This document shows positions 7,581 to 60,600 of a DNA stretch of 64,000 nucleotides, piece by piece. The stretch comes from Diplonema papillatum (taxonomy: Eukaryota > Euglenozoa > Diplonemea > Diplonemida > Diplonemidae). Location of the stretch: the NCBI GenBank assembly GCA_030068145.1, contig JAPJBO010000054.1:186001-250000 (forward strand), in the 5' to 3' direction. How positions within the stretch are numbered: the stretch's first letter is position 1; each line of letters begins with the position of its first letter. Both the position numbers and the translations under genes were made by a program. The notes under the pieces were generated by a model. That model saw nothing but the letters and a program-made list of their open reading frames with translations, did no database searches and was not told where the DNA came from.

Positions 7581-8600
7581 TAGCCGGGCCCCGGGGTGGT
7601 GTACGAAAGGCGAACTTGAATAAACGACACTGTCGCGTGCATCCCTTCAACAAAAACGTTGGAATCTGGAAAATCCCACTACGGATGATAGCATCTCATT
7701 GTTTTTCTCGGAAAGACATCGAACTTTGTGAATATCGCTCTAGCAGAAGTTCGGGGAAGAGCTGCTGCCTGCGGTGTCAACAGCACCTCAGCTTGCGCAA
7801 GACCCAGAGAACCTTTTGGGACGTTGTTAACCATCCAGACGAGCAACGTTCATAGCTGCCTTCCTCCTGGGTGTCGTTCGCCCTTTTGTTGCTTCCATTT
7901 GTGGCTGCCTGTACGTGATTGTAGTCTCATCTTTGCATGGTATGAACAGTGAAGCACACACACAGGCTGCTAGCCGGTACCAAACGGTGTCCACCCTAAA
8001 ACCATCAACTAATACACCCCCCCCTGGGCCATTTTCCATGAAACTTCCCCCGAAAACACGTTTCCGGGCATTTCTGAGGCGGGTTGCATGTTCTTTTAGG
8101 CTTAAACTGCCGTTAAGTCTACAGGCTGAAAATGTCACCATTTTGACGCAAAAAAAGACCTTTTGACCCCCCCTACCCCCCCCCCCCCCCCCCACCCTCA
8201 GTGCTGCAACAACACGTTCATCTTGACTTACTCATACAATAACATGCGTATATGTACACCACCCCCTCCGGCTCCCTTTTTAGCCTGGGCAGTGATGCTA
8301 GGAGACGGATACGTATCGAGGAGACGCTTCCGTATCCTATCTCTTCCGGATGAGCTAGGATGTGCTAGAATACGTGGTGTACGGAGGGTCGTGAAGGTGG
8401 GGGTACTAAGTAGTATGTGCAGCACAAGTGACAACACCTGCAGCAGAAGGCCATGAAAAACAGCGCTTATATGTCCGCCGCCAAGCCGACAGCGAAAAAG
8501 ACCGCGGCGAAGCCAGTCGCGAAGCCAGCCCCAAGGCTAGCAGCATTGGAGATTCGATGTGGGAGGCCGTCACCCGTGGGAAACAGAAACTTGGTTTGGG
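7581..8600. other. gene-free; poly-C tract
   Basis: A run of about 20 C residues lies at 8174-8193. No gene or known repeat is recognised otherwise. Confidence 0.45.
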
Positions 8601-8604
8601 GGGA

Positions 8605-9060
8605 AAATCTTAGTTTAAGGTTTAGGCAGAGCACTGCCTCTCGGGAATGGTTGATGCCTAGCATCAATTCTTCTTCGAGGAAGATGTTGTCTAGGAAAGG
8701 GATGCAAAATAGAAAGAGGTAAAAAGGGGAGTGTGCGGCTCCCAAAGTGGGGTATGAAACCTTGAGGGACTACCCCCTGTGTTTTTTCACCGCGGTGTTG
8801 AGCCCCTCGTTCTTCGTCTCAGGTTTCGCTCTTGAACGCAGACCATTCCAAAGTCAGAGCTCAGAGAGAGGGGGGGGGGTCTTCGTTTTAGGCTTAGGCA
8901 TAACGCTGCCTCTCATGCATGCTTGATATAGAATCAAGTCTTTTCCGACGAAAAAAGAGGGAGGGAGAGAGTGAGAGAGAGAAAAAAAGAAGGGAGTGCA
9001 AGACTCCGTCCGTTAAAAAAGAAACGGTTTGAAGGGTCGATGAACCATGGGAACTATTAT
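8605..9060 (+). repeat. two copies of dispersed repeat D2
   Basis: 8605-8870 and 8875-9060 each carry the AGGC...CACTGCCTCTC block, a GATGC...GCATCAA hairpin and a downstream G/A-rich section with a GACTCC-type box. Other copies are at 22930-23070, 31380-31590 and 40612-40700. Confidence 0.7.
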
Positions 9061-12715: not shown

Positions 12716-13008
<293 letters not shown>

Positions 13009-22929: not shown

Positions 22930-23070
22930 TTCTGAAAGTGGGGAAAAGCTTAGTTTAGGCAGAACACTGCCTCTCATGCATGTTTGATAGCATCAAGTCT
23001 TCGTTGAAGAAAGTGTAAAATAAAATAGGGGAAAGGGAAAAGGGTCGCAGGGAGTGTAAGACTCCCGGGG
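22930..23070 (+). repeat. dispersed repeat D2
   Basis: Cleanest copy: TTAGTTTAGGCAGAACACTG, TCTCATGCATG, GATAGCATCAAGTCTTCG and GTGTAAGACTCC in order. Confidence 0.8.
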
Positions 23071-24864: not shown

Positions 24865-40010
<15,146 letters not shown>

Positions 40011-40295: not shown

Positions 40296-40620
40296 TTTTC
40301 GAGACTGGAGGTCCTATGAACATGCAATGTGAATAGCCTCTATTCGAGCCACCCCAGTTTTCTGTAAACGAGTTTGAAAGTGTATTGTTTTTGACTGGAT
40401 TTAGTGGGAGCTAGCTTTCCCCCCCCCTGCCCAAAAGCATAGGGGTGGCAGGGTGGGCTGGCTTCGGCCTTCAGGCCGGTAGGCCCGGGTTCGGACCCCG
40501 CCCATGACGCTTTTCCGGTCGAAGATTGTTTTCGAGGTTTGTTGCGATCGGTCTCATGTGCCCGAAATTCAAACTTTACCCGTACTCGGTGGTCGGGGGG
40601 GGGTCTGGGGGGGGAAAATC
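40296..40620 (+). mobile_element. tRNA-derived composite SINE (T-SINE), copy 2
   Basis: 5' module at 40296-40360, tRNA-like head at about 40441-40510 (B-box GGTTCGGACCC, one mismatch), and body at 40511-40560 with CCGGTCGAAGATTGTTTTCG. The tail is a single AAACTTTACCCGTACTCGG unit, then G-rich sequence. Confidence 0.75.
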
Positions 40621-40700
40621 TTAGTTTCGTGTTCAGGCGCTACTTGCCTCTCATGTGTTTGATGCTAGCATCAAGTCTTCTTCGCGGAATGCAGAGTCTT
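40612..40700 (+). repeat. dispersed repeat D2
   Basis: Diverged copy with CTTGCCTCTCATG and GATGCTAGCATCAAGTCTTC. Confidence 0.6.
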
Positions 40701-41110
40701 ATTTTCTGTTCTTTTCTTTCTTTCGTTGTCGACAACTTCCTTTTTTCTCCTTCTACTTTCTTTACCTTTTTTTTGGACTTTCTGGTGCCGTAGTGTAGTT
40801 CTTCTTTCTCTATGCCGCCCACGTCGATGTTCGTTTAGCATTGAGTTCTTTTAAGTACATGAACCACAGGATTAGCATGCACTACGATGTTCGTTTAGCA
40901 GCGGCTGCCGTATCATGCCGTGGCACCGTCCCTTTGTGCGTCTGCGCGCTTCGCAGAAAAAGTGTGGGAAAGGAGTCCAGGACTCCGTGGTTTGAAACCA
41001 TATGGTATGGTTCCACTTCCTCCTTCCTTCGTTCGTTCTTCTTTAAAAAAAGGGGGTTTTCAAAGTGTGTTGTGGCTCGTAACCAACCGCCACGGGGCAC
41101 TACTTCCACC
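40701..41110. other. gene-free; D8 fragment and short duplicated block
   Basis: D8 (TTGAGTTCTTTTAAGTACATG) lies at 40843-40890. The block 41078-41130 (TGGCTCGTAACCAACCGCC) parallels 39708-39760. Confidence 0.5.
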
Positions 41111-41114
41111 AGGT

Positions 41115-41576
41115 GAAAGTGTTTACGCTTTCTCGAGAGAGATGATGTAGCCATTCGTTGTGAATCTTCTGGCACATTCCTCCCATGAGAGTACGAATAC
41201 CTGCTGGTCGTCGAAGCCCACCCATTCGTCATTTACCTTTAGCACGGTATAGTAATGACCTGCCGTCGCTCTTCCGGTGTGGAATGATGAAGCCATTTAC
41301 CGTGTAGGAGTCTTCCCCGATCAGAATGGTTGGTCGGATCGGGGTACGGGCTGGTATTTTGATGTCTTCGCGTGTTTTTTTCGACAGCTGTGCTCGTTGC
41401 AGTACTACATCCATTTGGTTTGGAAATGTGTAATACTCCTTCGTGAGTCCAACGGTCCTTTTGTTGCAGGTGCTACAGGGGCAGTCGTCCACTTTGGTTG
41501 CTCTCTTGTTTTTCACTTTCTTTATCAGATCGTCTACTGACTGGTGTAGGGCTTCTCCCTGTTTTTGAGTTCAACC
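41115..41576 (-). pseudogene. ubiquitin-specific protease, C-terminal half (frameshifted)
   Basis: A frame entering near 41575 reads LHQSVDDLIKKV, then the second zinc-finger pair CPCSTC, YTFPNQMDVVLQRAQLS (the LKRF position), DSYTVNGFII, then breaks. A one-base shift at about 41270 restores HTGRATAGHYYTVL and EWVGFDDQQV, ending NGYIISLEKA and a stop at about 41115. These are the His box (GHYY) and Asp (FDD) of peptidase family C19. The shift makes it a pseudogene, or there is an assembly error there. It continues the half at 42424-43506 across an inserted LINE fragment. Confidence 0.85.
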
Positions 41577-42423
41577 ATTAGGAACGGTTCTGACGCCGGC
41601 GGTCGACTTCGGAGCGGACGGAATGATGGAATGTCTTGGTGTCGAACTCGACCGGGTGAATCTGCCGAAGCTGAAACTGTACAACGTGTACAGACCACCG
41701 GAAGAGGGTGCATCGCTAAACATGGGGCCTCTTGTAGGGGACGACCATGTGGTGATCAGTGGGGATCTGAACACAAGGCACCCGTCATGGTGCCCATCCG
41801 GCAAGTCAAACGCTGCCGGAGTGACTCTACACGAATGGTTGACCCTGAGACAGACGACGGTCTGGAACGACCCAGGAACACCGACCCGGGACGAGTCAAA
41901 AACGTCACCAGACGTCACGATCTCGGCCGCACACCCGCACGCTGTGTGCAACTGGCGGACGATCGAGTCTTGGGGGTCGGACCACCGCACTCTCATCTTC
42001 GAAGTGCCCCGCGGATACGAGCACGAGAGGGAACAGGTCCGACCGCGCTACGCCTGGAGCCGTGCCGACTGGAAGGAGATGTCCAAATACCTCGAAAAAG
42101 ACAACACCTGGCCCCAGACCGAGTACGAACAATACAAGGAAAGCCCGCAGCGCCTCGCCGACGCCATTTCTAACCGGATGAAAGGGGCCATCAGTCGGTA
42201 CGTCCCGAAGGCGTCGGGCAACAAACCACCGAAGCCGTGGTGGACAAAAACGCTGACTCCTCTCTCAGTAAAATGACTAGTCAAAACACCTTTTTCACTT
42301 TTACTAGTGCACCGTGGGGGGGGGGTGGGGGGTCAGGTCCGATTCTGCCAACGACTCCGCAATCTGGCCGCTTAGGGCCACCCCTGGGGGGGGGGGTGGG
42401 GGATAGAGAACCAAGTATCCTCA
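41577..42423 (+). mobile_element. LINE fragment inserted in the USP domain
   Basis: Occupies exactly the gap between the two USP halves, on the opposite strand. It holds an endonuclease frame and then a poly-G-rich sequence at 42310-42415 similar to T-SINE tails. Confidence 0.7.
41623..42276 (+). CDS. LINE AP-endonuclease (EEP) domain, 5'-truncated
   Basis: 217 residues. The frame is open from before 41623, so the N-terminus is missing. NVYRPP, then ISGDLNTRHPSW (residues 46-56, with the Asp and Asn of the active site), SPDVTIS (95-101) and WGSDHRTLIFEV (117-128, catalytic Asp-His) are classic for apurinic endonuclease domains of non-LTR retroelements of the Jockey/ingi type. The sequence ends PPKPWWTKTL, the start of the linker to RT in such proteins. 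The first catalytic Glu block is absent, and no RT follows. A dead fragment. Confidence 0.85.
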   Translation: MMECLGVELDRVNLPKLKLYNVYRPPEEGASLNMGPLVGDDHVVISGDLNTRHPSWCPSGKSNAAGVTLHEWLTLRQTTVWNDPGTPTRDESKTSPDVTISAAHPHAVCNWRTIESWGSDHRTLIFEVPRGYEHEREQVRPRYAWSRADWKEMSKYLEKDNTWPQTEYEQYKESPQRLADAISNRMKGAISRYVPKASGNKPPKPWWTKTLTPLSVK

Positions 42424-43506
42424 CTAAGGAGGTGCTCGTGAAGACTCTTCGCATGTTGTACACGTTGTCAATCGGGAGTATGTCACCGTCGCTTGGTCGT
42501 CGTCGTCGTCCGTTACGCAAGAGCGTATCCACGTCAACAGTTCGTGCACGTCCCGCTGCGCGGAGTCGTTTGTTGTCGTGTCGAACACAAGGCTCCGAAG
42601 TGTGGCCATTGTTCCGTGGATGTCACGGCCTGCGTCGAAATCCGTGAACAGCTGCTGCACCTTCAGCTGGTTGGTGTTCGGGTGCGAAAGGCCTGCGAGC
42701 TGCAGTCGGAAGGAAGTCCTTCGCGCCAGGAACTGAACGCTGGCGGCAAAGAAACATGAGTTGCGGATGTTCCTTATGCCGTTGCGTCCAGGTGGGTTTG
42801 TTGGCTTCGTCGCAAGGTGCGTAGTGCTGGTGGGTTCGGGTTTGTGCGGCGACGTTTTCTGCGGCGAGGTTCTCCCGGGTGGAGGTCTCGGTGAACCATC
42901 GGGTGGTTGCGGTGACCGGATGCTGATGTACGGTTTCTCTTCGTTGGTCGGGCGTCCTTCGTCAAAGGCCTTTCCGACGAAGTGGTAAAACCGTGACAGA
43001 ACTCGCGCATCCAGTTCGTACTTCCCGTACGTTTGTGCAACGAACGTGTCGAACGTGTGTCGGAGTTCCCGTCCAGAGAATCCTCGGTTGCAGAGTCTGT
43101 AATGCACCTTCATGACCTCGACCTTCAGATCTGGCATATTGTTACATATGCGCGCTGCTCGAATCAGAGCGCCTTTGAAGATCGAGGTTCCGGTGTTCCG
43201 TGGTACCGTTGATTCGACGTGCGTGTACTTGATCGGATACCAGGGGAATTCCTCACCCTTGTCCAGGACGGACATCCGAATGAAGTCCGTTTTGGTATCC
43301 CTCTCCATCCGGATCCGCATCCCCAGAAAGACGACGTCGTCGACACCTTTCGATGTTTCTCCGTACTCCATGCCGTAGACAGATTCCGGCGGTGGTCGAA
43401 CGCCCCAGGTCAAGAAGTCATCGATGAATCTGACGCTGTCGGCGTGATTCCTGGCTTCTTCTTGCAATCCTTTTGCGACCAGGCCGTCCCCGGGTACCAG
43501 TGCCAA
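42424..43506 (-). CDS. reverse transcriptase segment fused to USP N-terminal half
   Basis: 360 codons in one frame, without a proper ATG (the frame opens at a T-SINE tail near 43495). Residues 1-190 are the 3' half of an RT: RFIDDFLTW (26-34) holds the Asp-Asp of motif C, then VVFLGMRIRM, LDKGEEFPWYPIKY and IFKGALIRAARICN. Residues 190-240 are a Pro/Ser/Thr-rich linker. Residues 241-360 are the start of a family C19 protease: NGIRNIRNSCFFAASVQFL (Cys box, Cys 251), AQRDVHELLTWI (318-327) and CTTC (349-352), the first zinc-finger pair. The match to RT lineage is uncertain; the DK..EFPW/S.VP pattern resembles a group of RTs I know from animals and protists, outside LINE and LTR types. The protease runs into an inserted LINE fragment and resumes at 41576. 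Confidence 0.8.
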   Translation of the reverse strand: MALVPGDGLVAKGLQEEARNHADSVRFIDDFLTWGVRPPPESVYGMEYGETSKGVDDVVFLGMRIRMERDTKTDFIRMSVLDKGEEFPWYPIKYTHVESTVPRNTGTSIFKGALIRAARICNNMPDLKVEVMKVHYRLCNRGFSGRELRHTFDTFVAQTYGKYELDARVLSRFYHFVGKAFDEGRPTNEEKPYISIRSPQPPDGSPRPPPGRTSPQKTSPHKPEPTSTTHLATKPTNPPGRNGIRNIRNSCFFAASVQFLARRTSFRLQLAGLSHPNTNQLKVQQLFTDFDAGRDIHGTMATLRSLVFDTTTNDSAQRDVHELLTWIRSCVTDDDDDQATVTYSRLTTCTTCEESSRAPP

Positions 43507-43990
43507 ACTTTACCCGTGCTCGGTGGGATGGGGGGGTGTCCCCCCCCGTGTACGAGCACCGACCTTAGCTTCACCCGGACTTTACCACCCTGGCCGAACT
43601 TCGCTTCGTGCCCAAACTTTTTTTAGTAGCACCAGAACTTAGCTTCGCCCGAACTTAGCATCACTCGAACTTAGCGCCGTCCGAACTAAGTTTCGCCAGA
43701 ACTTAACTTCGCCCGAACTTTAACTGCTGCCTCCAGTCTCGCCCCGCGCCGGCCTTTAGCCGAGCGCACGTACTCTTCTTGTTTGACTGGTTTGAAGCAG
43801 ATTTTTAGCGTTTATTGTGGTTTAGAGGTTCGGTGTTTTAGGGTCTCCGGTTGACCATTGAGGCTGTGAAGCGGGTAGGATGAGGGCAGGAGGTATGCTT
43901 ATACACTTTAACTACGGCTAGCCATGTGTTGTAAGTGTTGCGACCGACACCAAGAAGAAATTCGCTTTGAATTTAGTCTTGGGCCCCCCA
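43507..43990 (+). repeat. T-SINE tail minisatellite, then D1-type sequence
   Basis: 43490-43740 holds units of CTTCGCCCGAACTTTA type with TAGCATCACTCGAACTTAG. 43780-43945 parallels 3355-3520 (TTCGGTG.TTTAGGGTCTCCG, CTACGGCTAGCCA). No gene. Confidence 0.65.
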
Positions 43991-43995
43991 CGCGC

Positions 43996-44060
43996 ATGTA
44001 AGTTGAGCATTGAGTTCTTTTAAGTACATGAACCACATGGATTAGCATGCACTGCCTTGA
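43996..44060 (+). repeat. direct repeat D8, left of LINE fragment
   Basis: CGCATGTAAGTTGAGCATTG with AGTTCTTTTAAGT. The matching copy at 45714-45775 lies at the other end of the LINE frame. Confidence 0.75.
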
Positions 44061-44068
44061 AAGTCAGG

Positions 44069-45718
44069 TTATCGGATGACGTCGTCACCTGCCATTGCGT
44101 CGTCAAGGTCGAGCATTTGTGGAGCTAGCGGGGTTTGGCTTTCTTGCGATTCCAGAGACTGAGTCGGCGAGTACGAGGGCGGGCACGTGTGTCCGTTTTT
44201 CACTTTCGAGGGCATTGGTGTGCCCGTGGTCCCCGGTCGTTTCTGAGAGCTGCTTGCCCTCGGTACCTTCTTCTTCCTTCGATGCACCCCTGAGTCGGGG
44301 GTGGTCGCCTTCGTCTTCTTCCGCTTGCGGCCGGCGATCGGGCCTTCCTTCGGGGTGCCTAGCACCCTTTTCTTCAGCGCTGGTCGTTCGCTGGTTCCTG
44401 GCGTTGGTGGCGGCCTTTTGGTCGCCCGTCCGGTCGTCGCCGTCTCCTTTTTCGTTGCCGCGGGCGGCGCTTGCGCCGCTCGCTTTCCAACTGGCGTTCC
44501 CCGTTGTACGCCCACCTGGGTGGGTGAGGAGGGCCTCTTCTTCTTGTTGCGTCCGGGGGTTGACGGGACGTTCGGTTCGTTGGACTGGTGGTGGCCGCGG
44601 CGGCAACATGCCGCCGGTCGCCTCTGCGTCAGCGTAGGGAGCCTCTTGCACTCTTGGCAGGTTCCTCTGCCATGCGTCGCCGCCGTCTTGCACTCGCCGC
44701 ACTTCGTCGTGCTGTGCTCTGTGCACACCGCGATCGGCTGCCCATCGTTCGCGTGGTGATGGTGCCGGCAGCACATCTCTACCGTGGGCACGTCCCTTCG
44801 GACGAGTGCTCTGCACGCCTCACACTTCCCTTTGTGATGGGTCGCGCACGTGACGAGTGCCTTCTCTATATCGACACCCGGCATATGCACGGGGTCTGGG
44901 TGCAGTTGTGGTGGGGCAGGCAGGGCCCACCTCGCCGCTCTCCCGATCGTCCAGTCAGGGTACGCCGGGCACTGCGTCCCTACATCGCTTCCTTTCACTT
45001 GTTCCTCAAGTATCGTCCCCGTGTGTGCCTCGCGAAAGCGTGGCCTGGGCCGTACACCCGATATCCCCGAGATGCCCATGAACGACAGCGACGTCGTCGG
45101 GCACACCCTCTCCCCTCTCATGCAGCTTCCCAGCCCTTGCTGTGCCGCCAGCTTGTCCAACGCGCTCATCATGCAGCGCAGGACGTTTCCCCGTTCTCTC
45201 ACCCCCTTCGGCGCATTCCCGTGCAGCGGCATGCTGAGGCCCGAGAAGAGTTCAAAGTCGATCGCAAGCTCTAGCATTGACGCCTGCCCGCTCTCGGTCC
45301 ACTGCATGTCAGACAGCCACGCTACCAACGCATAAAACGTCGGTAGTCCCCAGGTCTTGTTTCGCTCCCACGTCCATGCCGGGGCAATCCGCGCAAAGGG
45401 GTGGTCAAATTTCTCGGCAGGCATCGCATCCGCTCTCGACCAGGGGGTCGTGGGGTTCCTGGCTACCCAGCCACGTGCTTCGAGCCCTGCACGTTCCGCA
45501 AGGATTTCAGCCATCATCTCCTGGAGCCGCCTTGATAAGTGGGCGTTCCCCGGTACAACCACACCATGTTCCAGCGTGCATCGGGGCCACTCGGTTCGGT
45601 TGGCCGCCATCAGCCCGGCGTGTGCTTCCCGCCGGCGAATGTGTGAGTATGCGTCGCAGTCCCAGTAGATATGCTGTTCGTTCTCCGTCACGCCGCTCCC
45701 ACAGTGCTTGCAGCGCAT
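44069..45718 (-). CDS. LINE ORF2 C-terminal fragment with zinc-rich tail
   Basis: 549 residues, no internal stop. It begins inside the D8 repeat, so it is 5'-truncated. Residues 3-21 form a CCHC knuckle (C3, C6, H16, C21), the motif that follows RT in R1/Jockey-type LINE proteins. Residues 30-285 are a Trp-rich domain (WLSDMQWTESG, LELAIDFELFSGL) seen after RT in some protist LINEs. Residues 291-377 contain about twelve Cys and many His in CxxC and CCRHHHH patterns, probably several zinc-binding knuckles. Residues 378-510 are Lys/Arg/Pro-rich, suited to nucleic-acid binding. RT and endonuclease are absent. The intact frame suggests a recent fragment. Confidence 0.75.
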   Translation of the reverse strand: MRCKHCGSGVTENEQHIYWDCDAYSHIRRREAHAGLMAANRTEWPRCTLEHGVVVPGNAHLSRRLQEMMAEILAERAGLEARGWVARNPTTPWSRADAMPAEKFDHPFARIAPAWTWERNKTWGLPTFYALVAWLSDMQWTESGQASMLELAIDFELFSGLSMPLHGNAPKGVRERGNVLRCMMSALDKLAAQQGLGSCMRGERVCPTTSLSFMGISGISGVRPRPRFREAHTGTILEEQVKGSDVGTQCPAYPDWTIGRAARWALPAPPQLHPDPVHMPGVDIEKALVTCATHHKGKCEACRALVRRDVPTVEMCCRHHHHANDGQPIAVCTEHSTTKCGECKTAATHGRGTCQECKRLPTLTQRRPAACCRRGHHQSNEPNVPSTPGRNKKKRPSSPTQVGVQRGTPVGKRAAQAPPAATKKETATTGRATKRPPPTPGTSERPALKKRVLGTPKEGPIAGRKRKKTKATTPDSGVHRRKKKVPRASSSQKRPGTTGTPMPSKVKNGHTCPPSYSPTQSLESQESQTPLAPQMLDLDDAMAGDDVIR

Positions 45719-45775
45719 GTATGTTGAGCATTGAGTTCTTTAAAGTGCAAGTGCCATCAAGGCAGACATGTTGAG
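45714..45775 (+). repeat. direct repeat D8, right of LINE fragment
   Basis: CGCATGTATGTTGAGCATTG with AGTTCTTTAAAGTGCAAG, closest to the 14560-14605 fragment in its 3' half. Confidence 0.75.
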
Positions 45776-57600: not shown

Positions 57601-60600
57601 GAGGCAAACCCGCGTGCTCTCCCGACAACGGCGGTCGCAGTGTTCGCGGAACGCGGTACGCCGACGGCGCGACGCATGCTCGAAGCTGCGCCGCTGGAGA
57701 TCCGCGTCCCGCTCCGCGCACACACAAGTTGGTTGGAGTTGGCTGTGCATTCGTCTCCTTTTTTTTTTTTTTTCTTCTTTTGTATGCGTTGGCAAACCGC
57801 AGCCCCACATCAGGACAACAGTGAGTGCAGAACAAACTGTCACAACCACGCAGCCGCCAGCAGGGAGGCACCACACGGAACCCGGCTGAGTGACAGGAAG
57901 GGGAGAAGAAGGGTAAACCGCGGCACGGTACTGCACGGGGACGCGCCTCGCATACAACGGACTCTCTTTCCCCCCCGCCCCTTCAATTACAAGTTGAAAC
58001 GTGTGACCGCCTTCATATTGGCAAACGTTGGCAATACCACAGTAGTGGTATAGCCCAAGGAACAGCCCCGGCTGCGCCAGGCACAGAGGCCGGAGGGAAA
58101 AAAGGGCAACGGTCTCGCGCAACAGCGCAGGCCGACACGCCCGCACAGCTGCTAACTGGGAAGCAACAGGAAAGCACCACACGGAACCCGGCTGGAAGGC
58201 CCCAAAGGGGAGTTGTCGGTGCTTACCAAAGCTGCCCTTGGTCAAACGCCGCCCAGGCCACCCAAACAACCAACTATTCTGTACCCCCTACTGGTAGCCG
58301 GAGCGGCTCGGTGGAGCATCACTGGATGCAGGACTGCAAGTCGCTGGCTCCCGACCAACGGAACGCAATCACCAACGCCACGGCAACGATCGACAACCGT
58401 ACCCGCCACACAACGGGGAAGCTCGACCGCAAACAGCGCGGCACATAACACTCATTCCACGAAAACGTGTCACAGATTTTTGCTTCCTCATATCCGACAT
58501 GTACAGGTCAAATTTTGAGCAAATTCGGTGCAGCCCGAAAACACATGGCAAGTCGTAGCGCAGGCGAACCCGAGCGACGTTACCGTCACCGGGGGGGCAA
58601 AAGGCCCGGCCGAGAGGCCGACGGCACAAACGCAGCCCAGACACCGACCAAGCGCACAACGGTCCTCGGGGACATGCCACGCTAGCGAAACACTTCTTTC
58701 TTTCTTTATTTCTTTACTTATTTCCGTCTTCTTTCTTATTTCCCTCGTCGACCCCCCCCCTTCCTATCCCCTAACCTGTGGACCTGTCACTCGTGCGCGT
58801 GTCTCTTGGCGCAAACGGGCTAGTAACGCCTGACCGTTCCGGATGCTGCTCTTCTGAGCGGCTGAAGGAACGGTGCTTGTTTTTCATTCATTCATTCATT
58901 CATTCATTCATTCCTGCCAAAATGCAAACGGGTGGCAGAGGGAGCGGGTGTCGGCCTTCAGGCCGGTAGGCCCGGGTTCGAATCCCGCCTTTGACATTTT
59001 TCCGGTCGAAGATTGTTTTCGAGGTTTGTTGCGTTTCGGGGTCAAATGTGCCCGAAAATTGCGTTTTTGGCGGAGTTTCACAGTATCTCGCGGTATTTGG
59101 GTCACCCCGGGAAACGGAGTCGGGCGGCCGAGCTTGCCATCACAGGCCAAACTTGCTACGAGAACCGAACTTTGCTTCACCAGAACTCAGCTTCGTGCGA
59201 ACTTTGCTTCGTCCGAACTCAGCTGCGCCCGTACCAGAATTTAGCATCGCCCGAACTTTGCTTCGCCAGAACTTAGCTTCGCCCGAGCGTTGCTTCGCCC
59301 GAACTCAGCTGCGCCCGAACTTTGCTTCACCAGAACTTAGCTCCGCCCGAACTTAGCATCACTCGAACTTATTATCGTCCGAACTGAGCTTCACCAGAAC
59401 TTAGCTGCGCCCGAACTTTTGCTTCGCCGGGGGGCGGCGGGGGGGGCGCCCACCCGGGTACCAGCGCCAAACTTTTCCCGCACTCGGTGGGTCGGGGGGG
59501 GTCCGGGGGGGGTGTCCCCCCCCGGGCACGAGCACCGACCTTGGCTTCACCCGGACATTACACCCTGGCCGAACTTCGCTTCGTGCCCGAACTGTTTTCC
59601 AGTACCAGCGCAGCCTGAGCGCTTAGCAACGCCCGAACTAAGCATCACTCGAAGTTAGCTTCACCAGCATTGCCCGAACTTAGCTTCGCCCGAACTTTAC
59701 TGTTCCCCGAACTTTAACTGCTGCCTCCAGTCTCGCCACGCGCCGGCCTTAGCCGAGCGCACGTACTTATGACTGGATTACATTTTGAAACACATTGCAA
59801 ATGTCTCGGATAAATTGGTATGGCGCTTTCTTTAGTTTTGTGCGCACTAGCGGAACTCGCCTGCTTTGGAAAGTTTCAAGACTGTTTCGAGTTTTAACCT
59901 GCGGTCGATATCGGTTTCATGTACTGCGCTGGGGCAACGGCAAAAGCATTGATAGCTAGCACCCCCACGCCCCCAGCACCTCGCCCGCGGCGCCCTCGCT
60001 AGGAGGCGGCTCGTCCGCCAGAAGCTCGCAGTCCGCAGGGTGCAGATCGCGAGGTGCTGGGGGCGTGGGCCCGCGGCGCCCGCGGCGCCCGCCAGCCGGG
60101 CTTCGCGCGTATCGCGCGCCACCCGCGCCGCGTGCGCCCTTCGCCTCCGCCCCCAGCACCTCGCCCGCGGCGCCCTCGCGAGGAGGCGCAGTCCGCAGGG
60201 TGTAGATCCCGAGCGTAGGTGCTGGGGGCGTGGGCCCGCGGCGCCCGCCAGCCGGGCTTCGCGCGTCTCGCGCGCCACCCGCGCCGCGCGCACTTCGCCT
60301 CCGCGCCGGCGCGGCCCCTCGCGCCGCTCTGGATGAGCACCGTGCCGCGCAGGTAGCCACCACAAAACCGGGGGTTTGCAAGAACGTGCTTGGAATGGGT
60401 ATGAGCCGGGGGAGGGGTCTCTTACCTCTCCGAGGAGTTTCACCACCTCGCACCTCCAAGGCGGGTGTAGGAGACGACGGTGTGGGCCGCCGAAACATAG
60501 AAATAAAAAAAAAGTGCGCTCGGCTAAAGACCGGCGCTGGGCGCTGGGAGAGCTGGAGGCAGCAGATAAAGTTCGGGAAACAGTAAAGATCGGGCGACGG

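Follow-up and report, generated by a model that had tools for sequence, protein, structure and literature searches.

The window analysed here is a stretch of 64,000 nucleotides from Diplonema papillatum (GenBank assembly GCA_030068145.1, contig JAPJBO010000054.1, positions 186,001 to 250,000 of the forward strand), and at its positions 41115-43506 lies a broken copy of a retroelement in which a reverse transcriptase (RT) is joined to a ubiquitin-specific protease (USP). A preliminary description of the window had reported an uninterrupted frame of about 360 codons with an RT motif, a USP Cys box, and a QRDVHELL box, and our frame scan bears this out: a stop-free frame of 361 codons runs on the minus strand from 43509 to 42427, with FIDD starting at 43428, the Cys box (NSCFFAAS) at 42762, and QRDVHELL at 42558. 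The frame is element sequence from 43488 on; there, inside the RT, homology to the complete element L021 (a 98% relative) starts, the 5' part being absent, and codons 1-7 (43509-43489) lie outside the element in a neighbouring repeat that recurs at 59453-59767. The N-terminal piece of the USP (42822-42427) matches the Pfam family UCH at E = 5.6e-4 (20.0 bits, below the cut-off of 23.9), and the C-terminal piece (41296-41126), with the GHYY and FDD boxes, matches it at E = 7.3e-6 (26.2 bits, above the cut-off). The two matches are separate and lie in the correct order along the USP, and the PDB sequences matched by the C-terminal piece are cellular USPs. The rest of the USP had been placed behind an inserted piece of a long interspersed nuclear element (LINE), and an 831-bp insertion with PF14529 is indeed found there; the frameshift in the C-terminal part that follows it had been overlooked. 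No target-site duplication of this insertion was seen, as its two edges have no common word of at least six bases. Of the two Pfam families proposed for checking the frame, UCH is recovered and RVT_1 gives no match in the RT piece. This RT piece of the window had no relevant match in Pfam, NCBIfam, PHROG, or PDB, and it is named an RT because complete copies elsewhere in the genome show RT motifs. Because the 5' part is absent and the USP is split by the 831-bp insertion and then frameshifted, the window copy is, judged by its sequence, dead and unable to make the fusion protein (Table 1).

Table 1. Parts of the element copy in the window, in the direction of its reading frame.
Feature	Position	Strand	Basis
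RT C-terminal half, motif C FIDD onward (inner boundary approximate)	42922..43488	-	start of L021 homology; RT motifs of complete copies
Pro-rich linker between RT and USP (boundaries approximate)	42790..42921	-	sequence; weakly conserved in relatives
USP N-terminal part: Cys box, QRDVHELL box, first CxxC	42432..42789	-	Pfam UCH; L021 alignment stops at 42432
831-bp insertion, LINE-type endonuclease Exo_endo_phos_2	41601..42431	+	gap between L021 positions 5601 and 5603; PF14529 E = 7.6e-12
USP middle, second CxxC	41232..41600	-	97.8% nucleotide identity to L021
USP C-terminal part: GHYY (His) box, FDDQQV (Asp) box; frame differs from USP middle	41126..41296	-	Pfam UCH; frame scan
3' terminal direct repeat (pseudo-long terminal repeat), end TTTT-poly-C	40609..41056	-	91-97% identity to L021 and L012 terminal repeats; 3' end motif

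When the 361-aa window frame was searched against the assembly (271 Mb in 2910 contigs), 114 places matched, 113 of them strongly, and in 105 of the 114 matches (counting the window copy) the listed range takes in the end of the RT together with the start of the USP. At 35 of the 114 places (hand count) the match lies in an uninterrupted frame of 1417-1525 aa, and 20 stretches around such long-frame copies, hereafter lineage A, were taken for analysis. The lineage-A subfamilies are about 98, 90, 76, and 73% identical to the window copy, and a complete frame runs from an N-terminal basic region through a GIY-YIG endonuclease, a CPC motif, the RT, and a Pro-rich linker to a complete USP. A genome search with the UCH family, which gave at least 149 places over the cut-off, host genes included, led to a second lineage (lineage B), of which three stretches were analysed. 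Its two long frames (1562 and 1585 aa) have the domain order of lineage A and are 28-30% identical to it from endonuclease to USP, and the RT-USP architecture has therefore been kept across a deep divergence. Among the 34 matches listed for a lineage-B query, 23 are near-complete stop-free frames (16 at 100%, 2 at 97-98%, and 5 at 85% identity). The preliminary description had looked to several copies with the same junction, and to RT and USP in one frame, as the mark of an element, and to a splice site removing the RT as evidence against one; the junction recurs at these many places and the architecture again in lineage B, and complete frames (1417-1590 aa) extend across the two domains with no need of splicing. 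Chance adjacency of a dead RT fragment and a host USP gene or pseudogene in one place, which would suit the truncated and interrupted RT and USP of the window and the lack of a Pfam match in its RT half, is practically eliminated because 105 of the 114 matches cover the RT end and the USP start, 35 places hold long open frames, and the architecture recurs in lineage B. A host gene carrying a retroelement insertion was rejected as well, as the frames are open through all domains. The chlorophyll a-b binding family has no match in the assembly, in a search that takes no account of introns, which is evidence against an alga or plant equipped with light-harvesting proteins.

In both lineages the GIY-YIG endonuclease lies N-terminal to the RT within one open reading frame (ORF). 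The Pfam family, matched at aa 249-336 in L014, was above its cut-off in three of the four lineage-A frames scanned and just below it in the other; of three lineage-B frames, one was above, one just below, and the third, which is truncated, had no match. The CxC motif (CPC) stands between endonuclease and RT in all four aligned lineage-A frames and both long lineage-B frames, and inspection of the aligned frames of the two lineages found the endonuclease to be without a CCHH motif. The RT of complete frames carries YGxPKLHK, FDFxxMY, GIPMGGNASPDLAN, FIDDF, and FLG, which we take to be motifs 2, A, B, C, and D in their canonical order. RVT_1 matched weakly, at E = 0.043 and 0.095, in two of the four lineage-A frames. 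A profile built from seven element RTs, five of which were kept by the program, was compared with six phage RTs, and motif B aligned with B and C with C at a score of 40.1 (E = 1.9e-4 for one comparison). The best of 50 column shuffles scored 30.4, the profile in reverse 18.8, and a comparison of the element USP with these six RTs 17.8. The sequence alignment also places a basic insert between motif 2 and motif A of the element RT, and RTs of Penelope-like elements (PLEs) have an insertion in the fingers domain. The identity of the RT domain is established at the sequence level, and affinity to Penelope is very likely, as judged from the motifs, endonuclease type, and structure rather than from a tree.

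A full lineage-A unit carries direct terminal repeats (up to ~440 bp), and in the 14 of 19 copies that allowed both repeats to be compared these are 97.7-100% identical (in one of the 14 over 49 bp). Copies of one subfamily at separate loci are 99.3-100% identical over their longest alignments among the matches listed (L018 and L026, which have common flanks, were counted as one locus or a duplication), and the RT-USP element has apparently been mobile recently. At its 3' end, TTT or TTTT precedes a run of five or more C, and host sequence or the next unit begins directly after it; because the pattern used to find this end itself required C, the C-run there carries no independent weight. As read from the second repeat, the left end that belongs to the element has C5-C6 and T6-T7, and seven of ten copies have a longer C-run, of 7-23, at their outer left junction, as against the 5-6 of the element itself. 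These junctions show insertion of lineage A mostly at poly-C tracts. Head-to-tail tandems are also present, three units on C510 with a period of 5726 (G000:C510:80366-92864) and two on C2819 with a period of 5850 (G000:C2819:756-7667). After the first repeat comes a conserved leader of ~0.8-1 kb, which begins with a hairpin directly behind the repeat (L024:1421-1481, L012:802-860, L021:741-799), and in this hairpin there are compensatory C-G to T-A changes between subfamilies. The predicted fold of the leader start was better than that of shuffles in L024 (z = -2.73) and not in L012 (z = -1.23, 28 of 200 shuffles being equally good). The Rfam hammerheads had no match in seven loci at the gathering score, or in the leader of L024 even with hits up to E = 5 admitted, and no relevant Rfam family matched that leader; on this basis a hammerhead ribozyme of known type was rejected for both the leader and the terminal repeat. 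Within the window, further fragments of the terminal repeat, 76-94% identical, lie at 8598-8863, 22953-23065, 31521-31592, and 43983-44053, with no other ORF copy nearby.

The USP is a C-terminal domain of ~280 aa after the Pro-rich linker. UCH was over the cut-off in seven of seven frames of both lineages (56.9-82.4 bits against 23.9), with E = 3.8e-18, 3.0e-15, 4.0e-18, and 4.8e-16 in four lineage-A frames and 5.1e-23, 1.3e-20, and 1.1e-21 in three lineage-B frames, and a USP profile found 47 PDB sequences at E <= 1e-3, all named USP or ubiquitin-like (Ubl) hydrolase (USP21 on top, 2.6e-8). The four lineage-A subfamilies show no variation in the catalytic Cys, His, and Asp or in either CxxC pair. 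The ratio of nonsynonymous to synonymous substitution rates (dN/dS) in six lineage-A pairs was 0.113-0.259 for the USP, 0.062-0.113 for the RT, 0.055-0.098 for the endonuclease, 0.218-0.350 for the linker, and 0.373-0.494 for the N-terminal region, and one lineage-B pair gave 0.152 for the USP, 0.082 for the RT, and 0.411 for the linker. These values are rough because many dS exceed 1; the least saturated pair, L012/L021 (dS 0.12-0.31), is the one with the highest USP value, 0.259. The USP lies below the linker in seven of seven pairs, and the comparisons show purifying selection on the USP, with the predicted catalytic residues kept. It is very improbable that the USP is a passenger, a captured host sequence carried without use; capture of host DNA by Penelope elements is reported in the passages at hand from PMC3846280, and the USP is less constrained than the RT, but a dN/dS of 0.11-0.26 that stays under the linker in every pair, the invariant triad and CxxC pairs, and the same architecture in two lineages 28-30% identical all argue against it. 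Somewhat better placed, though improbable too, is a USP that is no longer a protease and serves as a ubiquitin-binding or targeting module, or that trims the element's own polyprotein. Some cellular USPs are annotated as inactive, in an abstract that yet reports two of them active, and a cleavage site for trimming would be compatible with the sequence; against this reading, the Cys, His, and Asp boxes are intact in all complete frames aligned (four of lineage A and two of lineage B).

A tree of 21 USP domains (4 from lineage A, 3 from lineage B, 13 from host genes, and 1 fused to a metallo-beta-lactamase (MBL) domain) has two fully supported clades, one consisting of lineage A and the other of lineage B plus the MBL-fused USP. 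Lineage A adjoins the host USP L045 with support of 85/85; long-branch attraction may have produced this placement, according to a warning by the program. The approximately unbiased (AU) test on this tree (p = 0.238) neither shows nor rejects a single origin for the USPs of A and B, and the USP may have been acquired either once or twice. Element USPs (two lineage-A queries) are 19-28% identical to the 13 host USPs where at least 150 residues align. The MBL-fused USP is encoded at L047:2101-4206 (G000:C9:544801-546906, plus strand) by a single uninterrupted frame of 702 aa that joins a metallo-beta-lactamase fold (34.2 bits, cut-off 22.7) to a USP. In the list of 63 matches (618 first-look candidates), its MBL part, to about residue 367, matches itself only, whereas most lineage-B rows show 60-62% identity to its USP and four show 54-57%. 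Either L047 is a host source of the USP module, or it is a host gene that acquired this module from the element.

We read the RT-USP fusion, from its copies and substitution pattern, as real, multi-copy, and under selection. Most probably, the copy in the window is dead and derives from a Penelope-like retroelement that has recently been mobile, belongs to the type whose GIY-YIG is N-terminal, and has gained a C-terminal USP (C19). The preliminary description had read an RT-USP element from the window, and the fusion in many copies upholds that reading; it had not recognised the host of the USP as a Penelope-type element with an N-terminal GIY-YIG. Several observations weigh against our explanation. 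The RT profiles found no RT among the PDB sequences, because of which the RT call rests on the motifs and on modest profile comparisons; the probability of the profile match to the six phage RTs was 47%, and the Bordetella phage RT alone against the same element stretch gave E = 0.0023 with a probability of 12.6%. At three of the ten left junctions there is no extended C-run at the end, one having C36 six bases off, one no extension, and one being cut by the locus. Two lineage-B copies had no terminal repeat in the stretch examined, and the ends and target described here are those of lineage A. Finally, within a given pair, dN/dS indicates a constraint on the USP that is 1.6 to 2.3 times weaker than that on the RT.

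Among known elements, Craig and colleagues are said to have marked the Naiad and Chlamys clades of PLEs in 2021 by an N-terminal GIY-YIG, a CxC motif, the absence of hammerheads, and microsatellite targets, and the endonuclease of the Chlamys clade is without a CCHH motif. The present element is like these clades in its N-terminal GIY-YIG, the CxC between endonuclease and RT, and PLE-like RT motifs, and also in its pseudo-long terminal repeats (pseudo-LTRs), tandems, lack of an Rfam hammerhead, and simple-repeat target; the missing CCHH is a likeness to Chlamys. It is unlike them in the extra C-terminal USP after the linker and in its insertion at poly-C tracts. Pseudo-LTRs and tandems are typical of PLEs according to the portions available of PMC11167929 and PMC3846280. 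Canonical Penelope/Poseidon elements (e.g., PAc of Anolis) share with our element a GIY-YIG and an RT in one ORF and a tandem pseudo-LTR (pLTR) structure, whereas they have a C-terminal endonuclease and a hammerhead ribozyme, with no USP mentioned in the available text of PMC11167929. NeSL/Utopia non-LTR retrotransposons similarly join an RT to a cysteine protease of ubiquitin/SUMO type in a retroelement ORF, but with another RT class and endonuclease and an N-terminal Ulp1-like protease instead of C19 (PMC4640811, in excerpt). A C19 deubiquitinase joined to a mobile-element protein is described in the accessible part of PMC2836005 for a Trichomonas DNA transposase_11 with Peptidase C19, which is a DNA transposase without an RT and is cited there as a single protein. 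Cellular USPs such as USP21 and USP15 have the same Cys, His, and Asp boxes and CxxC pairs, and the element USP differs from them in being fused to an endonuclease and an RT. No relative of the whole frame, the RT piece, the USP piece, or two profiles was found in viral contigs by exact-short-peptide scans, which miss distant relatives; tblastn against phages gave no match, PHROGs and NCBIfam nothing relevant, and a DNA-pattern search for RT motif B a single stretch that is not an RT. A literature search of partial coverage found no retroelement with a C19 USP, which leaves its absence from print unproven, and we found the combination of a GIY-YIG, an RT, and a ubiquitin-removing enzyme in one long protein described for no retroelement.

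Studies of host restriction have shown that retroelements are subject to ubiquitin-linked control. By analogy with its family, the GIY-YIG domain of our element would nick a poly-C/poly-G tract, the element RNA would engage this target through its C-tail, and the RT would copy the RNA by target-primed reverse transcription. The USP would be an active deubiquitinase that is kept with the RT covalently, and could strip ubiquitin from the element's own protein or ribonucleoprotein, slowing its destruction by the proteasome. Because the USP is joined to the RT, the element protein is its nearest substrate, and such self-protection from degradation, which the preliminary description had proposed and which would be in keeping with the data, is the role that we tentatively put first as the simplest functional reading, with an action on histones or repair factors ranked next. 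In this second and rather unlikely reading, the USP would act mainly on the chromosome at the insertion site, where by deubiquitinating histones or repair factors it would favour insertion via second-strand synthesis or repair. The tethering of the USP to the endonuclease and RT at the cut is in its favour, and a part for ubiquitin/SUMO proteases in repair during transposition is proposed for Ginger transposases in the sections available of PMC2836005; on the other side, the choice of substrate is unreadable from sequence. It is possible, if somewhat doubtful, that a deep Penelope-type lineage uses a conserved deubiquitinase of its own against ubiquitin-based host control and that at least one host gene (the MBL-USP gene, whose USP is ~60% identical to that of the element) has exchanged the module with the element. 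A covalent RT-deubiquitinase fusion, selected in two deep lineages with near-identical complete copies, makes it directly testable whether retroelements counter ubiquitination in cis.

One frame of the window matched Pfam YopE at E = 8.3e-4, which was taken as composition noise. On the minus strand, an open frame of 556 aa (44069-45739) contains Cys/His-rich motifs close to the N terminus but matches no Pfam family above the cut-off, and by eye it resembles the C-terminal part of another retroelement. Also on the minus strand, an open frame of 976 aa (27299-30226) carries an RNase H-like domain of reverse transcriptases (PF17917, E = 4.3e-7). The window further contains very long perfect microsatellites, namely TG x145 (12717-13007), TAG x150 (26272-26721), and TAG x139 (30601-31016).

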